Positions 47,401-55,375 of a stretch of 64,000 nucleotides of DNA are shown in pieces. This DNA comes from Thysanoteuthis rhombus (lineage: Eukaryota > Mollusca > Cephalopoda > Oegopsida > Thysanoteuthidae), in the NCBI GenBank assembly GCA_963457665.1, contig OY735207.1, positions 43,575,614-43,639,613 on the forward strand, given 5' to 3'. The notes below the pieces were generated by a model that saw only the letters and a list, made by a program, of their open reading frames with translations, was not told where the DNA came from and did not search any database. Positions within the stretch are counted from its first letter, which is position 1, and every line of letters begins with the position of its first letter. Position numbers and translations under genes: made by a program.

Positions 47401-50400
47401 GAGCACATGTAAAAAAACTAGAATTCAAAATACTGATTTCCAAGGCAGGTACTTTTCCACTATGTCATTAAATTTAGTAAAACATCATCAAGTCAAACTT
47501 CCAAAATCTGACAACTTTATATCGGTACGAGGTCTGTCCAGAGAGTATCCAGCCATTTTGACCATTAGAAGAACAAGTTGTGTGGCCTCAATGTAACTTG
47601 GCAACCAATCATAGGGGACCATACCGCACATGCATAAACAGACACTCTCATAAAGTTACTCAGTGGGCAGTGAGAGGCCACGAAGTGAGCATGTTTTGTG
47701 TGACCATCGCATTTACAATGATCGAGCATGTTCATCCAAAAAATTGCCGCACCCAAAACTGTCGCCCTCTTGCTTACAATCAATATTTGACTACCAGGCT
47801 TTTCCCAAAGTGTGGTATACCACCACTGTAGTATAATGAGTTTTGCATAAGCAAATTCATAAACAATTAAGTCACATTTCAAAAGTGTAAATATGATTCT
47901 GTACGAATCAAATATTCTCACAGAACAATGTGCAAAATATTGGGTTTGGAACTTTAGCATAAACCTAATATTTTAACTCAGTTCCTCTGAAGAAAGGAAC
48001 TTTCGCAAAAACCTAATATTTCAACCCATTCTCTCAAAATAAAGGAAGGAAAAGTAAAAAAAAAACAAAAAAAAAACATATTATGTGACTTACTTCCAAG
48101 AACCAAATGTCTCCCAATGAATAGAGCATCTCGGACATCATGTGAATGGAAATGCAGAACAGTTGACCGTGTCCACGTGCTTTGTGTTTTCCCTGAGATG
48201 ATTCCACTATGTTTGCCTTTGGCCCGTTTGGGATGCGGACCAGAATCAGGATTAATGTTTTCAATATATACAATTGAGGGATCCACACCACTTCCCACTA
48301 CAATGTTCTCATCCTTAAAACAGAAAAACGTAGTCATGAACACCTTTACAAAACTACGAAATAAGAATTTATATAATCAAGAGTTTCAACTCTTTGCAGG
48401 GTTGCATTTTTTCCATGAAAACAAAGAACATTTATTGCATTTTTACAACATTTCCATTTTAATACAAATCATTCAATAAGTACAACAGATATCTCAGAAT
48501 TTTTGAGATGAGGTATTATTATTATTTCTACTGATATTTGGACCATCCTTATCTTGGTTGTTTTTCATACAACGTTTCGGCCGTTGCACTCTACCTGACG
48601 AAGGCCGTAGAGTGCAACGGCCGAAACGTTGTATGAAAAACAACCAAGATGAGGATGGTCCAAATATCAGTAAAAATAAGTACAACGGAATATCTAATGA
48701 CTGTAATATATACATAGAGATATATAAGAAAAAAAGACTATGTTCAAAATCTGCAATGTTGTACATACAATTTTTGAAATCATTCAGCAACATTTGTTTC
48801 TGTAATAAAACTATTTGTTACCAAAAGATTTTTCGAATTAATCCCTCTCAAAACAACTGGAACAAAAATAAATAATCTAAATAAAATGAAAAATGTTGTC
48901 CAAAATGCAATATGATTCATAAATTATAAATATGTACATGAAATGTATACATTAGTTATAAATACTACATAATCTGCTTTCTTCCTTTCTTGTCCTTTTT
49001 TATCAATCTTGAGAATTGATTTCTAAAAAAGGAATATGACACTGTGACATGAAAAAAGAAAAAAAAAAACTCCCCTTTCTTTGCCCACTCTCTATGTCGT
49101 ACCTTTCAATCTTCACCAATGCTATGAACTAATTCAAAATGTCTGAATGGAAAATCTTCTGCCATCCATAGAACTGTCGATTTTTGTCGCAGTTAAGAAG
49201 ACATTTTTGTAACTTATCTCATCATTAACACTGGACTGACAACTTACTCAGACAATTTATTTCATCCATGCTGCTAGATGGATGACTTACTAAGACAAGT
49301 TATTTCAAATAAATTGAAGAAGTTTCTTCAGACTAAGCCAACACTGGATCAAAGTCACAGAGCAGTTTTGAAAATTCAGCACTGAATTCTCTGAAACTTT
49401 GTTAGAATTAAATCCATTCAAGATTCCTACATCTGTTTTTTTAAACATTGTGAAACCTGTTAAATATAATAAAATTACTTGGCAAAACTATTATGTATTG
49501 GTGATAGTATTTCTACATTTACAACCTTGTATTAGGATTGCTGGAATAGATAGGATTTTCAAATTATAACTGTATCTTCTGCTTTCCTTCTAATATTGAT
49601 TTGCTCAACTTTTTGAAAAAAGTATGATCAGAATAACAGTGAAAAATGAAAAGTTCCAGGATAAATTATTCGCCCCCCGGGAAAAATAATTGCATCTCCA
49701 ATACCAAATTTATGTAGCTAAAAAAAATTCTTGAATGGTATCTGAAAAAGGAAAAAAAATCTTACCCGGTTGACAGCCAAACAAAGAACATCAGCTTTAT
49801 GAGTGCAGAGACACTGAAAGAAAAAAACATACACTTCAATAAATATATTTTCAATATGTATATTAAAAATAAACAAAAACAAATTCAACACATTATTATT
49901 ATTATTATTATCATCTATTATAATCATGCACAATGTTATTATCAAACAGGCATTGTTATCAAAACCAGTTGCTACTTTTTCTCTTGTTCATGGTGAAAAG
50001 CAAAAATAACATTCACCATTGGTTCTGCAGCAAGCAAGATTCTGGGAGAATATACCCCAAAAGCTTTCATCCAACTTTGATGATATTTTGTAGAATGGTG
50101 GATAATGAGCCACAGAATTGATTAAATGTGCAATTACCTCCCCAACGGTGTTGGCAGAGGTATATGCTCTCCGCGTGCATTCTGGTTACGACCTTTCCAC
50201 AAAATCTAATTGAAATCTATAGAGAACTTTTAGATATATTGTGTGGACAGATACGAGCATGTACATAAATGTAGGGGGGGGGATATCTTCCAATCAAAAA
50301 AGATTCTAAGATCTGCCCCAAAATTTGACCACTCATTTCTTACCCTATAGTCCACCCTCCCAGAAAATTTAATTAAAATCTATAGGGTACTTTCAGATAG

Positions 50401-52345
50401 TTTTTGCAGACAGATGGAAAGACATGGCTAAACACATATGCATGTCCAACTTTGTAGGCAGAAATAAATAAGGATACAGTTTCGCAGACAATATCAAAAC
50501 AAATTTTCTGGTTAGTAATAATTGCCAATCACTCTAGTTAGAAACAGGCTTCACATCTGATCAGTGATTTGAAAAAATTCCACTGAAGTTGAAAGTACAA
50601 CAGCAAAAAATAAAAGACATTAAGAGATATCAAAACCAAATAACTGACCTTCAATTCTGTTCCAAACTTGCTATCCCAGAATGTGATTCGCCCTTGAGAA
50701 TCGCCACTCACCACGGTCATGTCCCTATAAAGGGAGAACACAATAGATGTAGAAAGAGAAGTGTATTCAAAGAAAAATAGAGTCTTAGGAGCTGATATCT
50801 AAATATAACTACAATTTAGCATAAAGAAATGATTCTGGTAACAAAAATATTCTGTAACAGAGTTTGAAAAGTCATTTTTTTTAAATCATAAGCTTAAATG
50901 CAAGCTTTTTCAGAAAATGGATGGTTCTCTTCTGAACAGACCTTATAATCTTTCAAGTACATAAAATTTGCTGGATTTTGTGTGGACTTACAAGCTAGTA
51001 CAGGCAAAACGGAAGGACAAGCAGTGCTTTACCTTTGAGATTAATAAGAAAAGTAATAGTTAATACATGGTCATCATGGTTTAAACATAACAGCGAATTT
51101 TGGATGGAAGGAATTGCACCAAATATGGTCATATTGTAGATTGTAAGATAGCAAATTTTGTGCCAAGAAAAGAGAGAGGAAACCAGAAAGAAAAAGGGAG
51201 AGAGAGAGAGAGGAAACCAGAAAGAAAAAGGGAGAGAGAGAGAGTGGAAACCAGAAAGAAAAAGGGAGAGAGAGAGAGTGGAAACCAGAGAGAAAGAGAG
51301 TGGAAACCAGAGAGAAAGAGAGTGGAAACCAGAGAGAAAGAGAGTGGAAACCAGAGAGAAAGAGAGTGGAAACCAGAGAGAAAGAGAGTGGAAACCAGAG
51401 AGAAAGAGAGTGGAAAACAGAGAGAAAGAGAGTGGAAAACAGAGAGAAAGAGAGTGGAAAACAGAGAGAAAGAGAGTGGAAAACAGAGAGAAAGAGAGAG
51501 AGAGAGAGTCGAAACCAGAAAGAAAGAGAAGGAGTGAGTGGAAACCAAAGAGAACGAAAGAGAGTGAGAGGGGAAAAAAAAAGAGAGAAGTAATACAAAT
51601 CTCAATGATAAACTTACGTCAATATTTTAATACACCATACAATGCTCTGACGCATTTTATCCCTTTTCAATGTAAACCGTTCAATAGCAATGCCAGAATT
51701 CACACTCCACACTCGTATATTATCAATGCCACCCGTAACAATCACATCTTCAGAGACATGCCAGTCAAGACAAAGGATTCGACCTGATGAAAAAAAGATA
51801 AATATTATCATAGATGAATAAATTTGTACAACATTAAAAATTTGTATCATACTTACCATTATAAACATAGTATGTAAAGAACAAATAGGGATATTTATTA
51901 CCCAATTTCTCATATATATATATATATATATGTATACAATGTGTACTGTAAAGAGTGAGACAGACTCGGGAGTAAAGTGTTTAGAAGTAAGGTTTATTAA
52001 TCCTTAGATGTAAATGGTCCAGACATGTTCCGGGGTTTTTCACATCTTCAGTGGTGTGTGCCGTGTGAGTATGATATATATATACATATATATATAAATA
52101 TATACGGAAATAAATGGTTGGCGAAACTATCTCACTCCACAGTAGATTTGAATGTGTGTACATCTGCATGTATTTGGTAGTAAACTGCAAGACAAACCTA
52201 ATTTCGAAATCAGTGAAAAAGGAGAGAAAATTACAAACCTTCTTGTTTGCTGAATGCCTTCAAATACTGTAAGTCATTATTTTCAATATTAAACAGCACA
52301 ACAGCACCCCCATCAGTTCCAACCTAAAAAAAAATAGAAAATTCA

Positions 52346-52393
<48 letters not shown>

Positions 52394-53348
52394 GAAGGAA
52401 GAACATGTAAATATCAAACACAGCACTGAAGAGATTAAATTTTGATCTGACAACCTTCATCAGTAGCCAGGAACTATGATTACTATTTTTTGACAGTTGT
52501 TTCTGATGACCCTCACACAGCATTCCTCTGTCACTTGACATATTATGTAGGTATTAGGCTACCTGGCTAGAAGGAGATGTTCATCTCTCATGCTCCAGCA
52601 TGTATATCATTGATTCCAATCATACAAAGTGAAGGGTGAAAGCATTCAGAATGAAACCCTAACAACATGTAAACCACTAAGTCGACCTACCATTTTACGC
52701 TCCATCAAGAATATACATAGATTAATAGAGAAAACGAAATATCACACATTTATTGTAAACAAAAAATGCACACCTAAAATGAAATTTATTTTTACTTTGC
52801 TGACTTTCTACAACTCTTCATATTTTCTCTTTTTTACTGATTTTATAACAAGGCAACAGAATTTCATAAAAAATGAATTACTTTTTCAATATGAAATAAA
52901 ACAAGTTTCATTCATGAGAATACCAATGTTGCCAATATTTGTTTTCTGTCCCACTACAAAGACATCTTCAGCAGCAACAGTAAAAGAAGTGATGTAGACG
53001 TGAACACAGACACAAGTGTTGCTTTACTTATTTCCTCTCTTTTTGTTTGCTTAAGCATGACAGAAACAAACTGAGAAAGTGTCATTGGCTTATATATATA
53101 TATATATATATAATGTGTACTTTAGAGAGTGAGACAGACTCGGGAGTGAAGTTTTTGGTGGTAAGGTTTATTAATCCTTATATATCTATAGTCCATACAT
53201 GTTTCGGGATTTCTCCCATCATCAGTGGTGAATGTTGTGTGAGTGTGGATTAAAATGTACCATGTGGAACCAGAGTCCACTGCCAGGGACTATGCATTGT
53301 GGGTAAGTTTTGTTGTCAGGGCTACTAGATGCCTCCTGCTGAATGTAA

Positions 53349-53414
<66 letters not shown>

Positions 53415-55375
53415 TCATATAAATACTAGATTTAGTGAAATAATAGTCAGCAAATTAGTAGTTGAAATGACTTACTGCCACAATCAGAGAGTCAGCTCTA
53501 ACACAATATTTTCCCAAAACTTCATAAAATTACAATGGATGCATATCTTTGAAATGATCAGGTTGTAGTAAATAAAGAACAAGTTTCATTACAGTCAAAT
53601 TCTGTTAATACCAGAGGATTAAAGAAAAATCTACATTGTTTTCACTTTGCTGTACATCTAATGTAATTTGCTATAACACAATTCAAAAGAGAAAGACTTC
53701 ACAATTCAAAGCGTTTTGTTCTTGCAATATCAAAACAACTAAGAGGATCCTCTCCTGTTCCAGTCTTTGTTCAATCACAGCCAAGGATCAATCAGAAGAA
53801 TAAGGACTAGATGTAGGAGACACATTCTCCAAAGCTGTACCTCCTAACTGCACTAAAATGATTAGGGTTGGGGCTATTCCCAGATGTTCGTGGCATGCAA
53901 TAGGCAAGGCCAAGGTAACTGGACATATTTTTAGAAACAAAACTTGAACATTTCTTACCGCTAAGCGTGTATTTGAGGAATTCTTCACCATGCACCAAAT
54001 TGAACCAGCATTACAATGAGCTTTGGCCTGAAAAAAGAAAAATATTGGTCAGGATAATACCGAAAAACTAGCAAGGTCATGTGGCACTGCCTGACTTTTT
54101 ATTAATACTCTTCATAGAATAATCTGTTTCTTTCATATACATTTTTAATGAAAATTAAACAGAAAGGAGGAAAAAAATCATTTTACATTGTGTAGCAATA
54201 GAAAATACTGTATATACATGTACATTATTTATAGAAAATGAAATTATTCTGAGTATTGCCAAAAGAAACTTCTGAGAGTCTAGATGGTGGCAACAACAAA
54301 GATGAGGAAATTGGTCAGAAAGAATGAATGAATAATAGAATACAACACCTAGTCTCATAAATTCAGACAGAAATGAGACAAAGTACACCATAACTTTGTG
54401 GTATAGACAACAGGGACAAGAATCAATGTATACTAATAACATACAATAGAAAAGCTGTTACTTCAAGCATAGAAGAGAAAAATAAAATGAATTTCTCACC
54501 TTTGGTGCTAACCTGAGAAGGTCATACTCAAAGACTTCACCAGAAAGTCCAGCAGAGAAAAGACGATTGCCAACCCAGACCAAGGTTTCTACAGATCGAT
54601 CAGTATCACCTGGAATCACCTTTTCTTTGTACCAGTTTCCAAGAATTTCTATGGATCCATCTGCCCTGAATAATAATGAACATACAACAGACTTAGCATC
54701 CAAATGAATTTAAGCTCAATGTCTTTATAGCTTTATACTCAGAGGTCACAATAGTGGAGCAACCAGAAAAGACTAATCTGAGGAAACTATCTTATGGTCT
54801 GCAAGACTAGCTTGTTAAACATTGTACAACAGGCTCCTCAACATCTTTAATTGACTACAAACTTACAAAAACTATGCAGTTCTTATTGATAACTTCTCTT
54901 TATTAGCTAATATATGACGGGTGAAATATATAGAGCCCTCACCCAGAAATAAATATCATCCAATCTGGTTAACTTGCTCCAATGTCTGAGGGAAGTGGGT
55001 GTTAGAATTCATTGACAAATTGATTTGAGTTAAAGAACAGCATTCAACAATATTCAAGCCAGTGTATGCAGTTTTTCCAAATGTTTTTAATTTTTTCAAC
55101 TTTTCTTTGTGACAACTTGGTTCCAGCTTGAACACATTGCACTGTTCATTGCAGGAGTCATTATGAAATTCACTGGTGACTTAATTAGTGTGCTTGGATA
55201 TCTTTGCCTAGATGATCTTTGTTAAAGGAAGATGGAAGTGAAAAAATCAAAAATCAAAACCTGTTTCTTACCTTGACAGAGCCAGCTTCTGATTGGTCTC
55301 ATTATAACAAAGATTGGTTATTCCTTGTGGAACATAATTGAAAAAACGGACTTGATGGAGGCGAAAATCAGACAT
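39355..55375 (-). CDS. UTP4: UTP4/cirhin, WD40 protein of the small-subunit processome, complete, 17 coding exons
   Basis: Seventeen coding exons join without a stop into 682 codons. Human UTP4 is about 686 residues. Exons in transcript order: 55375-55272, 54665-54500, 54027-53959, 52323-52239, 51783-51618, 50724-50649, 49813-49766, 48313-48094, 47086-47019, 46589-46487, 46306-46146, 44916-44733, 43435-43329, 42631-42536, 42069-41887, 41057-40965, 39474-39355. All introns are GT-AG and phases match throughout. The start MSDFRLHQVRFFNYVPQGI parallels the cirhin N-terminus (MGEFKVHRVRFFNYVPSGI), and the end VLKMKKFGAS parallels the family's KKKKFGT tail. Between them run WD40 repeats (GTDGGAVVLFNIE, GGIDNIRVWSV, GDSQGRITFWDSKFGTELK, GNGSGEVHVFDTTSGE). 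Known role: UTP4 is a t-UTP/UtpA subunit needed for rDNA transcription and 18S pre-rRNA processing in the nucleolus. Human cirhin mutation causes North American Indian childhood cirrhosis. No truncation or frameshift was seen. Confidence 0.96.
39475..40964 (-). other. UTP4: UTP4 last intron, with AT arrays
   Basis: This contains AT microsatellites at 39669-39697 and 39991-40060 and a C-run near 40140. A hammerhead-like decayed motif (CTGACAAAGGC..GAAACATTGTG) lies at 40208-40240 on the + strand. No exon was seen. Confidence 0.7.
40965..41057 (-). CDS. UTP4: UTP4 exon 17
   Basis: Residues 613-643: PFPDRSIKYKRFGCQG through LHAFHITWKFK. Confidence 0.88.
41058..41886 (-). other. UTP4: UTP4 intron 16, no features
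   Basis: This is AT-rich sequence with an A-run at the acceptor side. I saw nothing else. Confidence 0.7.
41887..42069 (-). CDS. UTP4: UTP4 exon 16
   Basis: Residues 552-612: IHEFCYTRNDYTMWSKQGRR, then FHPQWLQRTTKIT. It parallels the cirhin VFEYSIPDKQYTDWSR..HHLWLQRDTPIT. Confidence 0.94.
42536..42631 (-). CDS. UTP4: UTP4 exon 15
   Basis: Residues 520-551: LPTAISFHPKQPVLFLAYSD. It is phase 0 to 0. Confidence 0.92.
42632..43328 (-). other. UTP4: UTP4 intron 14, no features
   Basis: This holds only short ACATA-rich and A-run segments. Confidence 0.7.
43329..43435 (-). CDS. UTP4: UTP4 exon 14
   Basis: Residues 484-519: LLEVSSDGRYVATGNGSGEV, then HVFD, a clear WD40 blade. Confidence 0.94.
43500..43997. 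mobile_element. MITE-like interspersed repeat in UTP4 intron
   Basis: It is bounded by perfect 11-bp inverted repeats, ACCTCTGCCAA (43500-43510) and TTGGCAGAGGT (43987-43997). Inside are paired blocks around CCTCCCCTGCATGA and CACCTCCTCTGCATCA. A related TTGGCAGAGGTAT segment recurs near 50.15 kb, where similarity seems to continue past the inverted repeat. The true ends are therefore uncertain. Confidence 0.55.
44388..44433. repeat. (AT)n microsatellite
   Basis: About 22 AT units in a UTP4 intron. Confidence 0.94.
44733..44916 (-). CDS. UTP4: UTP4 exon 13
   Basis: Residues 423-484: HQMVFTPDCTKFILATNVGT, then LQILNFEQNE. The donor GTACTT is suboptimal. Confidence 0.92.
44917..46145 (-). other. 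UTP4: UTP4 intron 12, no clear features
   Basis: This is a 1.2-kb intron. A GC-rich segment near 45.77-45.87 kb (CCGCTGCCGCGG) stands out from the AT-rich surroundings and may be a SINE or other repeat scrap. I could not identify it. Confidence 0.6.
46146..46306 (-). CDS. UTP4: UTP4 exon 12
   Basis: Residues 369-422, including IVCSTISNNAKLLAYSTVDQ, which parallels the cirhin IICSCISPCGSWIAYSTV. Confidence 0.93.
46487..46589 (-). CDS. UTP4: UTP4 exon 11
   Basis: Residues 335-369: KQLVHTAKDTNILLLQYPTH, then LEVWKLGHSS. It matches the cirhin LLLFQFAHHLELWRLGS block. Confidence 0.92.
47019..47086 (-). CDS. UTP4: UTP4 exon 10
   Basis: Residues 312-334: STDTNITVVTSPTKFMKISG. Confidence 0.88.
47418..47475 (-). 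mobile_element. tRNA-derived SINE fragment
   Basis: On the - strand, TGACATAGTGGAAAAG resembles an A-box. CCTGCCTTGGAAATCAGTATTTTGAATTC resembles the anticodon arm and B-box of a tRNA. A scrap sharing ATACTGATTTCCAAGG occurs near 7680-7705. Confidence 0.45.
47528..47760 (+). mobile_element. mariner-type 5' end
   Basis: After a TA, CGAGGTCTGTCCAGAGAGTA begins a block homologous to 38205-38330. Near 47720 ATGATCGAGCATGTTCATCC resembles the start region of mariner transposases (MIEQR-like), which quickly decays. Confidence 0.6.
48094..48313 (-). CDS. UTP4: UTP4 exon 9
   Basis: Residues 239-312: DENIVVGSGVDPSIVYIENI, a basic linker (PKRAKGKHSG) and HFHSHDVRDALFIGRHLVLG. The HxHDVR motif is conserved in cirhin. 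Confidence 0.92.
48526..48690. mobile_element. Palindromic Penelope-like repeat with hammerhead-like core
   Basis: Two arms of about 60-70 bp are near-perfect inverted copies around 48595-48603. Each arm holds CAACGGCCGAAACGTTGTATG, the GGATGGTCC block and the ATATCAGTA edge. On the + strand CTGACGA (48595-48601), a GGCCGT/ACGGCC stem and GAAAC (48623-48627) make a well-paired hammerhead-like core. Confidence 0.7.
48595..48632 (+). ncRNA. Hammerhead-ribozyme-like motif
   Basis: The hammerhead consensus is CUGANGA, stem II, GAAA, stem III. Here CTGACGA is followed by one unpaired A, a perfect 6-bp stem II (GGCCGT/ACGGCC) with an 8-nt loop, then GAAAC and GTTGTA. The extra A before stem II and the short helix III are departures. 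Activity is unproven. Confidence 0.4.
49766..49813 (-). CDS. UTP4: UTP4 exon 8, 48-nt microexon-like
   Basis: Residues 223-238: CLCTHKADVLCLAVNR. Both ends are in phase 0, so skipping would delete 16 residues without a frameshift. Confidence 0.88.
50020..50480. repeat. Interspersed repeat related to the 43.5-kb element
   Basis: TTGGCAGAGGTATATGCTCTCC..GTGC (50153-50180) matches the end of the 43.5-kb element. Two parallel tracts containing AATTGAAATCTATAGAGAACTTTTAGATA and AATTAAAATCTATAGGGTACTTTCAGATA (about 50207 and 50368) show an internal duplication. Confidence 0.5.
50649..50724 (-). CDS. UTP4: UTP4 exon 7
   Basis: Residues 197-222: DMTVVSGDSQGRITFWDSKF, a WD40 blade. Confidence 0.92.
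51160..51590 (+). repeat. Purine-rich minisatellite, 22-bp unit
   Basis: Three longer units of 34-36 bp (GAAACCAGAAAGAAAAAGGGAG..) lead into about ten copies of a 22-bp unit, GTGGAAACCAGAGAGAAAGAGA, with an ACCA to AACA variant block near 51415-51500. It lies at the very start of a UTP4 intron. The transcript therefore carries a CU-rich array directly after the exon 6 donor. Confidence 0.93.
51618..51783 (-). CDS. UTP4: UTP4 exon 6
   Basis: Residues 142-197: RILCLDWHVSEDVIVTGGID through RQSIVWCIKIL. A GA minisatellite starts within about 25 bases of its 5' splice site. Confidence 0.93.
51913..52090. repeat. Penelope-like repeat copy with AT tract
   Basis: An AT tract is followed by GTGTACTGTAAAGAGTGAGACAGACTCGGGAGT, TAAGGTTTATTAATCCTTA and a - strand hammerhead-like scrap (CTGAAGA at 52051-52045, GGAAC in place of GAAAC). 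It is homologous to 53091-53250. Confidence 0.7.
52239..52323 (-). CDS. UTP4: UTP4 exon 5
   Basis: Residues 114-142: VGTDGGAVVLFNIENNDLQ. The donor GTTTGT is weak, yet the protein alignment and phase require it. Confidence 0.9.
52350..52391. repeat. (AT)n microsatellite
   Basis: About 20 AT units, about 30 bases beyond the exon 5 acceptor of UTP4. Confidence 0.94.
52392..53090 (-). other. UTP4: UTP4 intron 4, distal part
   Basis: A - strand scrap (CTGATGAAGGTTGTCAGATCAAAA, about 52456-52433) looks like another decayed hammerhead-type motif. The rest is AT-rich without recognisable content. Confidence 0.5.
53091..53250 (-). repeat. Penelope-like repeat copy with AT tract
   Basis: This is the second copy of the 51.9-kb repeat: AT tract, GAGTGAGACAGACTCGGGAGTGAAG, GTAAGGTTTATTAATCCTTA, then the hammerhead-like core on the - strand. 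The two copies differ at roughly one base in five. Confidence 0.72.
53196..53232 (-). ncRNA. Hammerhead-ribozyme-like motif, best preserved copy
   Basis: On the - strand CACCA precedes CTGATGA (53225-53219). A T, the stem GGGA/TCCC closed by GAAA, then GAAAC (53205-53201) and ATGTATGG follow. CCA before the core can pair with TGG after a GTA cleavage-type triplet, forming helix I. All invariant core bases are present. The T before stem II and the minimal helix III are atypical. Function is not shown. Confidence 0.45.
53351..53411. repeat. (AT)n microsatellite
   Basis: About 29 AT units in a UTP4 intron. Confidence 0.95.
53959..54027 (-). CDS. UTP4: UTP4 exon 4
   Basis: Residues 91-113: AKAHCNAGSIWCMVKNSSNTRLA. 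It is 69 nt, starting and ending in phase 0. Confidence 0.9.
54500..54665 (-). CDS. UTP4: UTP4 exon 3
   Basis: Residues 35-90: RADGSIEILGNWYKEK through the first WD repeat FSAGLSGEVFEYDL. Confidence 0.93.
54666..55271 (-). other. UTP4: UTP4 intron 2, no features
   Basis: I recognised nothing beyond the splice signals. Confidence 0.7.

Follow-up and report, generated by a model that had tools for sequence, protein, structure and literature searches.

A probable small hammerhead ribozyme in the terminal repeat of a coding, non-autonomous relative of Penelope-like elements in Thysanoteuthis rhombus

Hammerhead ribozymes are known from Penelope-like elements (PLEs), and their role in transposition is unsettled. 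In eukaryotes, double hammerheads are described as needing a palindrome in the loop of stem III together with a tandem arrangement (PMC6466107, citing Lunse et al.), and the giant squid genome is listed with 235 Rfam hammerhead I hits (PMC6962438). Here we analyze a hammerhead-like motif in a stretch of 64,000 nucleotides (the window) from the cephalopod Thysanoteuthis rhombus (GenBank assembly GCA_963457665.1, contig OY735207.1, positions 43,575,614 to 43,639,613), where it lies on the minus strand within the gene UTP4, in a repeat that an initial annotation had called Penelope-type. Judged from its sequence, the motif is very likely a genuine hammerhead ribozyme of slightly unusual form, with a predicted cleavage site, and it probably works in pairs on the RNA of the element that carries it. 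We put a probability of roughly 0.7 on the full reading, namely that the motif is a hammerhead belonging to the terminal repeats of a retroelement about 1.84 kb long, which is young, non-autonomous, and Penelope-like, and that it would act by the mechanism set out below.

The core and the element that carries it

Read on the minus strand from 53228 to 53193, the motif is CCA-CTGATGA-T-GGGA-GAAA-TCCC-GAAAC-AT-GTA-TGG (Table 1), and every piece pointed out initially (CTGATGA, the GGGA-GAAA-TCCC hairpin, GAAAC, and a GTA-type junction, all on this strand) is present. The focal copy has all of C3 U4 G5 A6 N7 G8 A9, G12 A13 A14, A15.1-U16.1, and H17; the same conserved core stands in the consensus of each of the lineages compared below, with individual copies varying. 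A descriptor that calls for a stem I of at least 3 bp, CTGANGA, zero or one extra base, a stem II of at least 4 bp, GAAA, two helix III pairs, and NUH finds a single site in the window, the focal motif, against an average of 0.083 sites in 60 Markov-1 sequences of window length. A looser pattern, CTGATGA-N6-30-GAAAC, is not significant by itself (1 seen versus 0.28 expected in the window), and a 25-base core has no second match in the window at up to three mismatches. The motif patterns had no match in viral and prokaryote collections, as expected of an animal repeat. Across the genome (2.73 Gb, 514 contigs), the exact 33-nucleotide core occurs 1163 times (576 + 587) and its reversed control 0 times. 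The descriptor statistics and these counts together rule out a chance origin, and identity of the focal copy to many other genomic copies rules out a decayed relic.

A query of positions 53091-53349 returned at least 22 places, its own included, that are 100% identical over all 259 bases (best 40 of 1140 candidates scored). Because of these many identical copies and the 1163 exact cores, we assign the focal copy to a young, expanded family. For each set of 40 matches, 18-20 places were fetched, and to these were added 19 diverged places and one array from matches to a query with the element's open reading frame (ORF); two further repeat queries were scored for the best 40 of 2542 and the best 40 of 2980 candidates. 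The full element, about 1.84 kb, consists of a repeat, a 410-codon ORF, a second repeat, and a TA tail. In one fetched locus (L009), the order is repeat (160-404), ORF (414-1649), 351 bases, and repeat (2001-2259, including the tail). Past the terminal repeat, the sequence continues in 20 fetched loci either into a (TA)n tail followed by flanking DNA or into the start of the ORF, and the 76 ends seen in fetched copies comprise 48 TA tails, 26 that run into the ORF, and 2 variants.

Units also lie head to tail, spaced 1841 or 1832 bases apart, and one array (L063) holds five hammerheads; tandem pairs occur as well among the matches to the ORF query and the core search. Many fetched copies are single and 5'-truncated, not tandem. 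By eye, 13 of the 15 5' borders visible in 20 young loci adjoin TA-rich repeats. The predicted cut lies upstream of the TA tail by about 84 bases, and therefore the ends of insertions would not be set by it.

Constraint on the core

Identity within the young focal lineage says nothing about selection, and we therefore compared lineages: A (focal); the subfamilies of A, whose ORFs are 90-95% identical; B, to which a second copy in the window (copy B) belongs; and Z, a further family that came to light in flanking DNA of a fetched locus (L085). The alignment has 96 sequences; L094 (Z group), whose core is altered at G8 and G12, and L062 (A subfamilies) dropped out at the BLAST step, three sequences were reassigned to the lineage that they matched, and one (L044:3184-3340) was kept separate as "other." The consensus sequences of A and Z disagree in 17 of 72 flank columns but in 0 of the 22 columns that make up the invariant core, stem II, the extra U described below, and C15.2-G16.2. 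At the flank rate, the chance of this result is 0.0027 for A-Z; the corresponding value is 0.054 for A-B and 0.15 for B-Z. Within the motif, A and Z differ at N7 (U to A), at H17 (A to C), in three loop columns, and in one compensatory stem I pair. As judged from these consensus sequences, the lineage differences fall where a hammerhead leaves freedom or in a compensated pair.

The pairing tells a similar story. Over 36 distinct cores, standard pairs fill 308 of 324 pair cells, compared with at most 153 of 324 when the 3' partner is slid by one to three columns, a control that favors the chosen structure by construction. Genome-wide, 281 copies lack the left-hand G of the second stem II pair (control, 0), and in the first 100 of them in genome order, counted by hand, 87 have GAGA facing TCTC and 13 keep the right-hand C. 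The GAGA/TCTC form, first seen in L053, is an amplified lineage with both changes. It had been proposed initially that a stem II that does not covary genome-wide would speak against the hammerhead; this double change shows that stem II does vary in a paired way, so that the test does not refute it. Likewise, 366 copies have a middle stem I base other than C (control, 0), and among the first 100 of these (again a hand count), the base is T in 85 (facing A in 56, G in 24, and T in 5), A in 13 (facing G in 9, A in 2, and T in 2), and G in 2 (both facing G). Compensatory variants thus occur in both stems across the genome, in the direction that a hammerhead predicts, and the structure appears to be under selection, which favors the hammerhead-like core as originally described.

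The core departs from the usual, though not defining, hammerhead form between A9 and stem II, where there is an extra base, U in 35 of the 36 distinct cores and A in 1. The same core minus this base has 0 genomic copies versus 1163 with it. The unpaired base had been raised as a reason for doubt, and it is indeed there; by the evidence of these sequences, lineages A, B, and Z all carry it as a fixed feature, and it is not a sign of damage. In the plus hammerhead of chrysanthemum chlorotic mottle viroid (CChMVd), an extra A is placed after A9. This plus-strand hammerhead is described as carrying an additional A (PMC3705267). According to Perreault et al., activity is lowered by some insertions in the core, and others may be tolerated (PMC3088659).

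A second doubt concerned helix III, which is minimal: in a single copy, the loop closed by A15.1-U16.1 and C15.2-G16.2 would have two bases, which is too short. Yet what looked like a flaw has the palindromic form found in dimeric hammerheads. ACATGT is self-complementary, is kept in 30 of 36 distinct cores, and in two copies would form a helix III of six pairs, and both features that double hammerheads are described as needing, the palindrome and tandem units, are present. The predicted minimum free energy (MFE) structure of a single copy is a non-hammerhead fold. In lineage A, a competing fold (53199-53221, minus strand) draws A6-U7-G8 into pairing with CAU from the palindrome in loop III; it requires U7 and cannot form in B and Z, whose consensus has A7.

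The encoded protein and candidate partners

The ORF appears to be maintained. Without internal stop are 88 of the 103 best-scoring ORF matches (hand count; 102 of 11429 candidates scored). Relative to the ORF of L009, the ratio of nonsynonymous to synonymous substitution rates (dN/dS) lies between 0.25 and 0.40 in all but one of 15 comparisons, the exception being 0.57; all 15 share L009 and so are not independent. The 410-codon product has no match in Pfam or PDB, no reverse transcriptase (RT) or GIY-YIG endonuclease was recognized in it, and its structure model is poor (mean predicted local distance difference test score, 37.3). It may resemble Penelope-like proteins in their N-terminal part; no family model matched it.

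A genome search for GIY-YIG domains gave at least seven places at E ≤0.001, five with stops (best 150 of 1163 candidates); at least one is presumably the host gene SLX1. One hammerhead descriptor applied to the fetched flanks of these places found no matching hammerhead. The flanks of two contain a frame that starts at a TA repeat and that we take to be RT-like on its motifs; Pfam did not recognize it, and these flanks have no match to the 410-residue ORF. Used as a query, the frame gave about 39 matches without stops, mostly partial, with the best full-length match other than itself 57% identical and most matches carrying stops; no intact autonomous partner was recognized among the best 150 of 895 candidates. 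Very long open frames among the ORF and RT-like matches were set aside, as they were runs of N in both places inspected. Remnants with both GIY-YIG (by Pfam) and RT-like frames lie in L033 and L146 (C18, about 25306500-25308500), L032, and L148, and may be true Penelope elements; that in L146/L033 likewise starts directly at a TA repeat.

Rfam, other hammerhead families, and the UTP4 setting

In Rfam, the focal stretch has no match at the gathering threshold and no hammerhead match even when E values as high as 10 are allowed, and the covariance test proposed initially thus came out below threshold. Ten control loci, five of them with the textbook-spaced core of a second family, also had no match, and in three of those missed (L016, L027, and L048) the core is intact. 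Because intact control cores are missed, this failure is weak evidence regarding hammerheads with so short a helix III, and the threshold, a rule for detection that does not define hammerheads, is uninformative here. These results suggest that small hammerheads can escape the Rfam thresholds even when their families are abundant. A Hammerhead_1 match in copy D of the window (48589-48612, 18.5 bits, E 0.041, gathering 34) was rejected; it ends before the GAAA of that copy.

The second family resembles a short interspersed element (SINE) and has a canonical-looking hammerhead at its end, with no extra base and usually followed by TA repeats. Its core is CCACA-CTGAAGA-GTTGT-AAT-ACAAC-GAAA-CAGCTGT-C-TGTGG, with the palindromic ACAGCTGT, and by eye it has a B-box-like GGTTTCGATCC; ARAGORN called no tRNA in six such loci. 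The core is intact, with a 5-bp stem II, in 17 of 25 copies examined, 3 of 25 falling outside the descriptor, and stem II covaries (GTTGT/ACAAC in 15 of 22, GATGT/ACATC in 3 of 22); the family query was scored for the best 40 of 960 candidates. A third family, or families, has CTGANGA, one extra base, a stem, and [GA]AAAC[GA]NTGT, and also occurs at loci L128-L145; the best 40 of 718 candidates scored are mostly 97-98% identical. The type at 48595 shows no matching stem I by eye, and 48522-48679 is a 160-base inverted repeat of this group.

The initial statement that the motif lies on the strand of UTP4 is borne out by matches of conceptual exons to the human protein, 54461-54709 to residues 34-93 (E 1.2e-10) and 51617-51799 to residues 145-202 (E 8.5e-5; other WD40 proteins score better there). 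A candidate exon between the two has no PDB match, and the exon for residues 94-144 was not located with certainty in the window. Copy B lies 1.17 kb downstream of copy A on the same strand. In its core, CTGAAGA-T-GTGA-AAAA-CCCC-GGAAC-AT-GTC, stem II is broken and A13 is replaced by G, but ACATGT and GTC-TGG are retained; from these changes copy B is probably dead as a ribozyme.

Table 1. Positions of the features discussed (window coordinates unless a locus is given)
Feature	Position	Strand	Basis
Hammerhead core, copy A	53193..53228	-	pattern search, pair statistics, 1163 exact 33-mer copies
Stem I, CCA/TGG	53228-53226 with 53195-53193	-	sequence
CTGATGA	53225-53219	-	sequence
Extra unpaired T (U)	53218	-	sequence
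Stem II hairpin, GGGA-GAAA-TCCC	53217-53206	-	sequence
GAAAC	53205-53201 (GAAA 53205-53202)	-	sequence
GTA (GUA), H17 at 53196	53198-53196	-	sequence
Palindromic ACATGT, A15.1 to U16.1	53197..53202	-	sequence; kept in 30/36 distinct cores
Predicted cleavage between H17 (A, 53196) and 53195	53195..53196	-	inferred from hammerhead geometry
Copy A, 5'-truncated terminal repeat (pseudo-LTR, pseudo-long terminal repeat) of the 1.84-kb element	53111..53350	-	repeat matches, borders
(TA)n tail, 3' end of element copy	53091..53110	-	sequence, fetched copies
(TA)n tract at 5' border, presumed target	53351..53410	.	sequence
Copy B, another subfamily, 84% identical	51917..52073	-	repeat comparison
SINE-like family loci	L016:3068, L020:3454, L023:609, L027:4166, L048:1003 (also L108-L127)	-, +, -, -, - (in order)
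Third family or families in window	468, 409, 48595, 35164, 35645, 19988	+, -, +, -, -, - (in order)	pattern

Mechanism, alternatives, and known systems

In the mechanism that we favor, each unit would contribute one small type I hammerhead that cannot by itself form a usable helix III but carries the palindromic ACAUGU. Two units, in one tandem transcript or in two transcripts, would pair through ACAUGU to form a double hammerhead, which would cut after GUA and release unit-length RNA with 5'-OH and cyclic-phosphate ends. An RT acting in trans would then copy this RNA, either linear or ligated to a circle, at TA microsatellites; the products would be 5'-truncated and carry TA tails, and the copy in UTP4 would be one of them. 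Cleavage, use of the dimer, formation of circles, and the trans-acting enzyme are inferred. Several findings weigh against this reading. The double hammerhead is predicted at -15.1 kcal/mol versus -21.9 for the best fold of a tandem pair; the A-B and B-Z contrasts are weak, and B-Z alone is not significant (about 0.15); and the variant copies share ancestry, so that compensatory events may be few.

An alternative, which we consider unlikely but which deserves weight, is that the RNA structure formed by hairpin and core has been retained to serve a different step in the cycle, such as binding by the ORF protein or an RT, or the start of reverse transcription, the fixed extra U having made the core catalytically silent. 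The extra base runs through lineages A, B, and Z, a core lacking it was not found, the single-copy MFE structure is not the hammerhead fold, and insertion of the Anolis element is reported not to have needed hammerhead cleavage (PMC11167929). Nevertheless, the 11 classical invariants stay while N7, H17, and the loops change, which a mere hairpin would not need; the competing AUG/CAU pairing is impossible in lineages B and Z; and the CChMVd plus hammerhead has an extra A as well (PMC3705267). It is very improbable that the motif has no function and is uniform only through recent amplification of the family. Uniformity within lineage A, with its many places identical over 259 bases, is uninformative, and the B-Z contrast does not stand alone, but the A-Z contrast (about 0.003) and the amplified compensatory double changes in two stems argue otherwise.

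Slightly more improbable still is recruitment of the focal copy to regulate UTP4 by cutting its pre-mRNA, possibly with the copy A core cutting the GUC of copy B. The arrangement would allow it in principle, as in a double hammerhead the core of one copy acts on the strand of the other, and the two copies share the strand of UTP4, lie 1.17 kb apart, and both have ACATGT, with GTC-TGG retained in B. Against this, the core is one of 1163 identical ones, stem I has only 3 bp, and the two sites are far apart. The initial suggestion that the copy could cut the UTP4 intron found no support: the core is common to more than 1000 places, a lone copy has nearly no helix III and is unlikely to cut well, and nothing that we found suggests a role in UTP4. 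The copy there is most likely a truncated element end and a passenger. The near-identical copies, tandem arrays, and natural compensatory variants of the family make the role of the dimeric hammerhead directly testable. The fixed extra base raises the question of how much core variation dimeric hammerheads tolerate, and the conserved ORF that of what its protein does for an RNA that the enzyme of another element would have to copy.

As to the identity of the element, the label Penelope-type fits its form (tandem pseudo-LTRs with a hammerhead, 5' truncation, and a 3' tail) but not its coding content. As no RT or GIY-YIG was recognized, it can be at most a non-autonomous relative and not a PLE proper; the most fitting description is that of a relative of PLEs and retrozymes that is coding and non-autonomous. 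Tentatively, and with more doubt than confidence, we suggest a new kind of retroelement, a coding retrozyme, in which dimeric hammerheads with an obligatory extra U would release unit RNAs that encode one conserved accessory protein and no RT; machinery acting in trans would mobilize them into TA microsatellites, bringing the family to well over 1000 copies. A literature search, mainly of freely readable papers by title and start of abstract, found no comparable RT-less coding element described.

With the small dimeric hammerheads described for PLEs, as represented in papers that cite Lunse, Weinberg, and Breaker (2017), the focal motif shares a type I core, a diminished stem III, a palindromic loop III, tandem copies, and location in a pseudo-LTR; it differs in the fixed extra U between A9 and stem II and in the lack of a recognized RT. 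Animal non-LTR retrozymes, as described in PMC7229834, are likewise non-autonomous, form tandem units with one type I hammerhead each, and are proposed to use a Penelope-like RT. They are, however, non-coding, with a canonical hammerhead and circles of 170-400 nucleotides in invertebrates, whereas the unit here has 1832-1841 bases, a minimal hammerhead, and an ORF with dN/dS of 0.25-0.57. The Poseidon element PAc of Anolis carolinensis, by the account in PMC11167929, has the same tandem pLTR-ORF-pLTR layout (pLTR, pseudo-LTR), with the hammerhead at the start of the ORF region and a genomic 3' end set by initiation of the RT in the tail and not by the hammerhead cut, but PAc encodes an RT and a GIY-YIG endonuclease, neither recognized in the ORF here. 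Finally, the CChMVd plus hammerhead has its extra A in a viroid (PMC3705267), whereas here the extra base is a U, and the setting is a mobile element.
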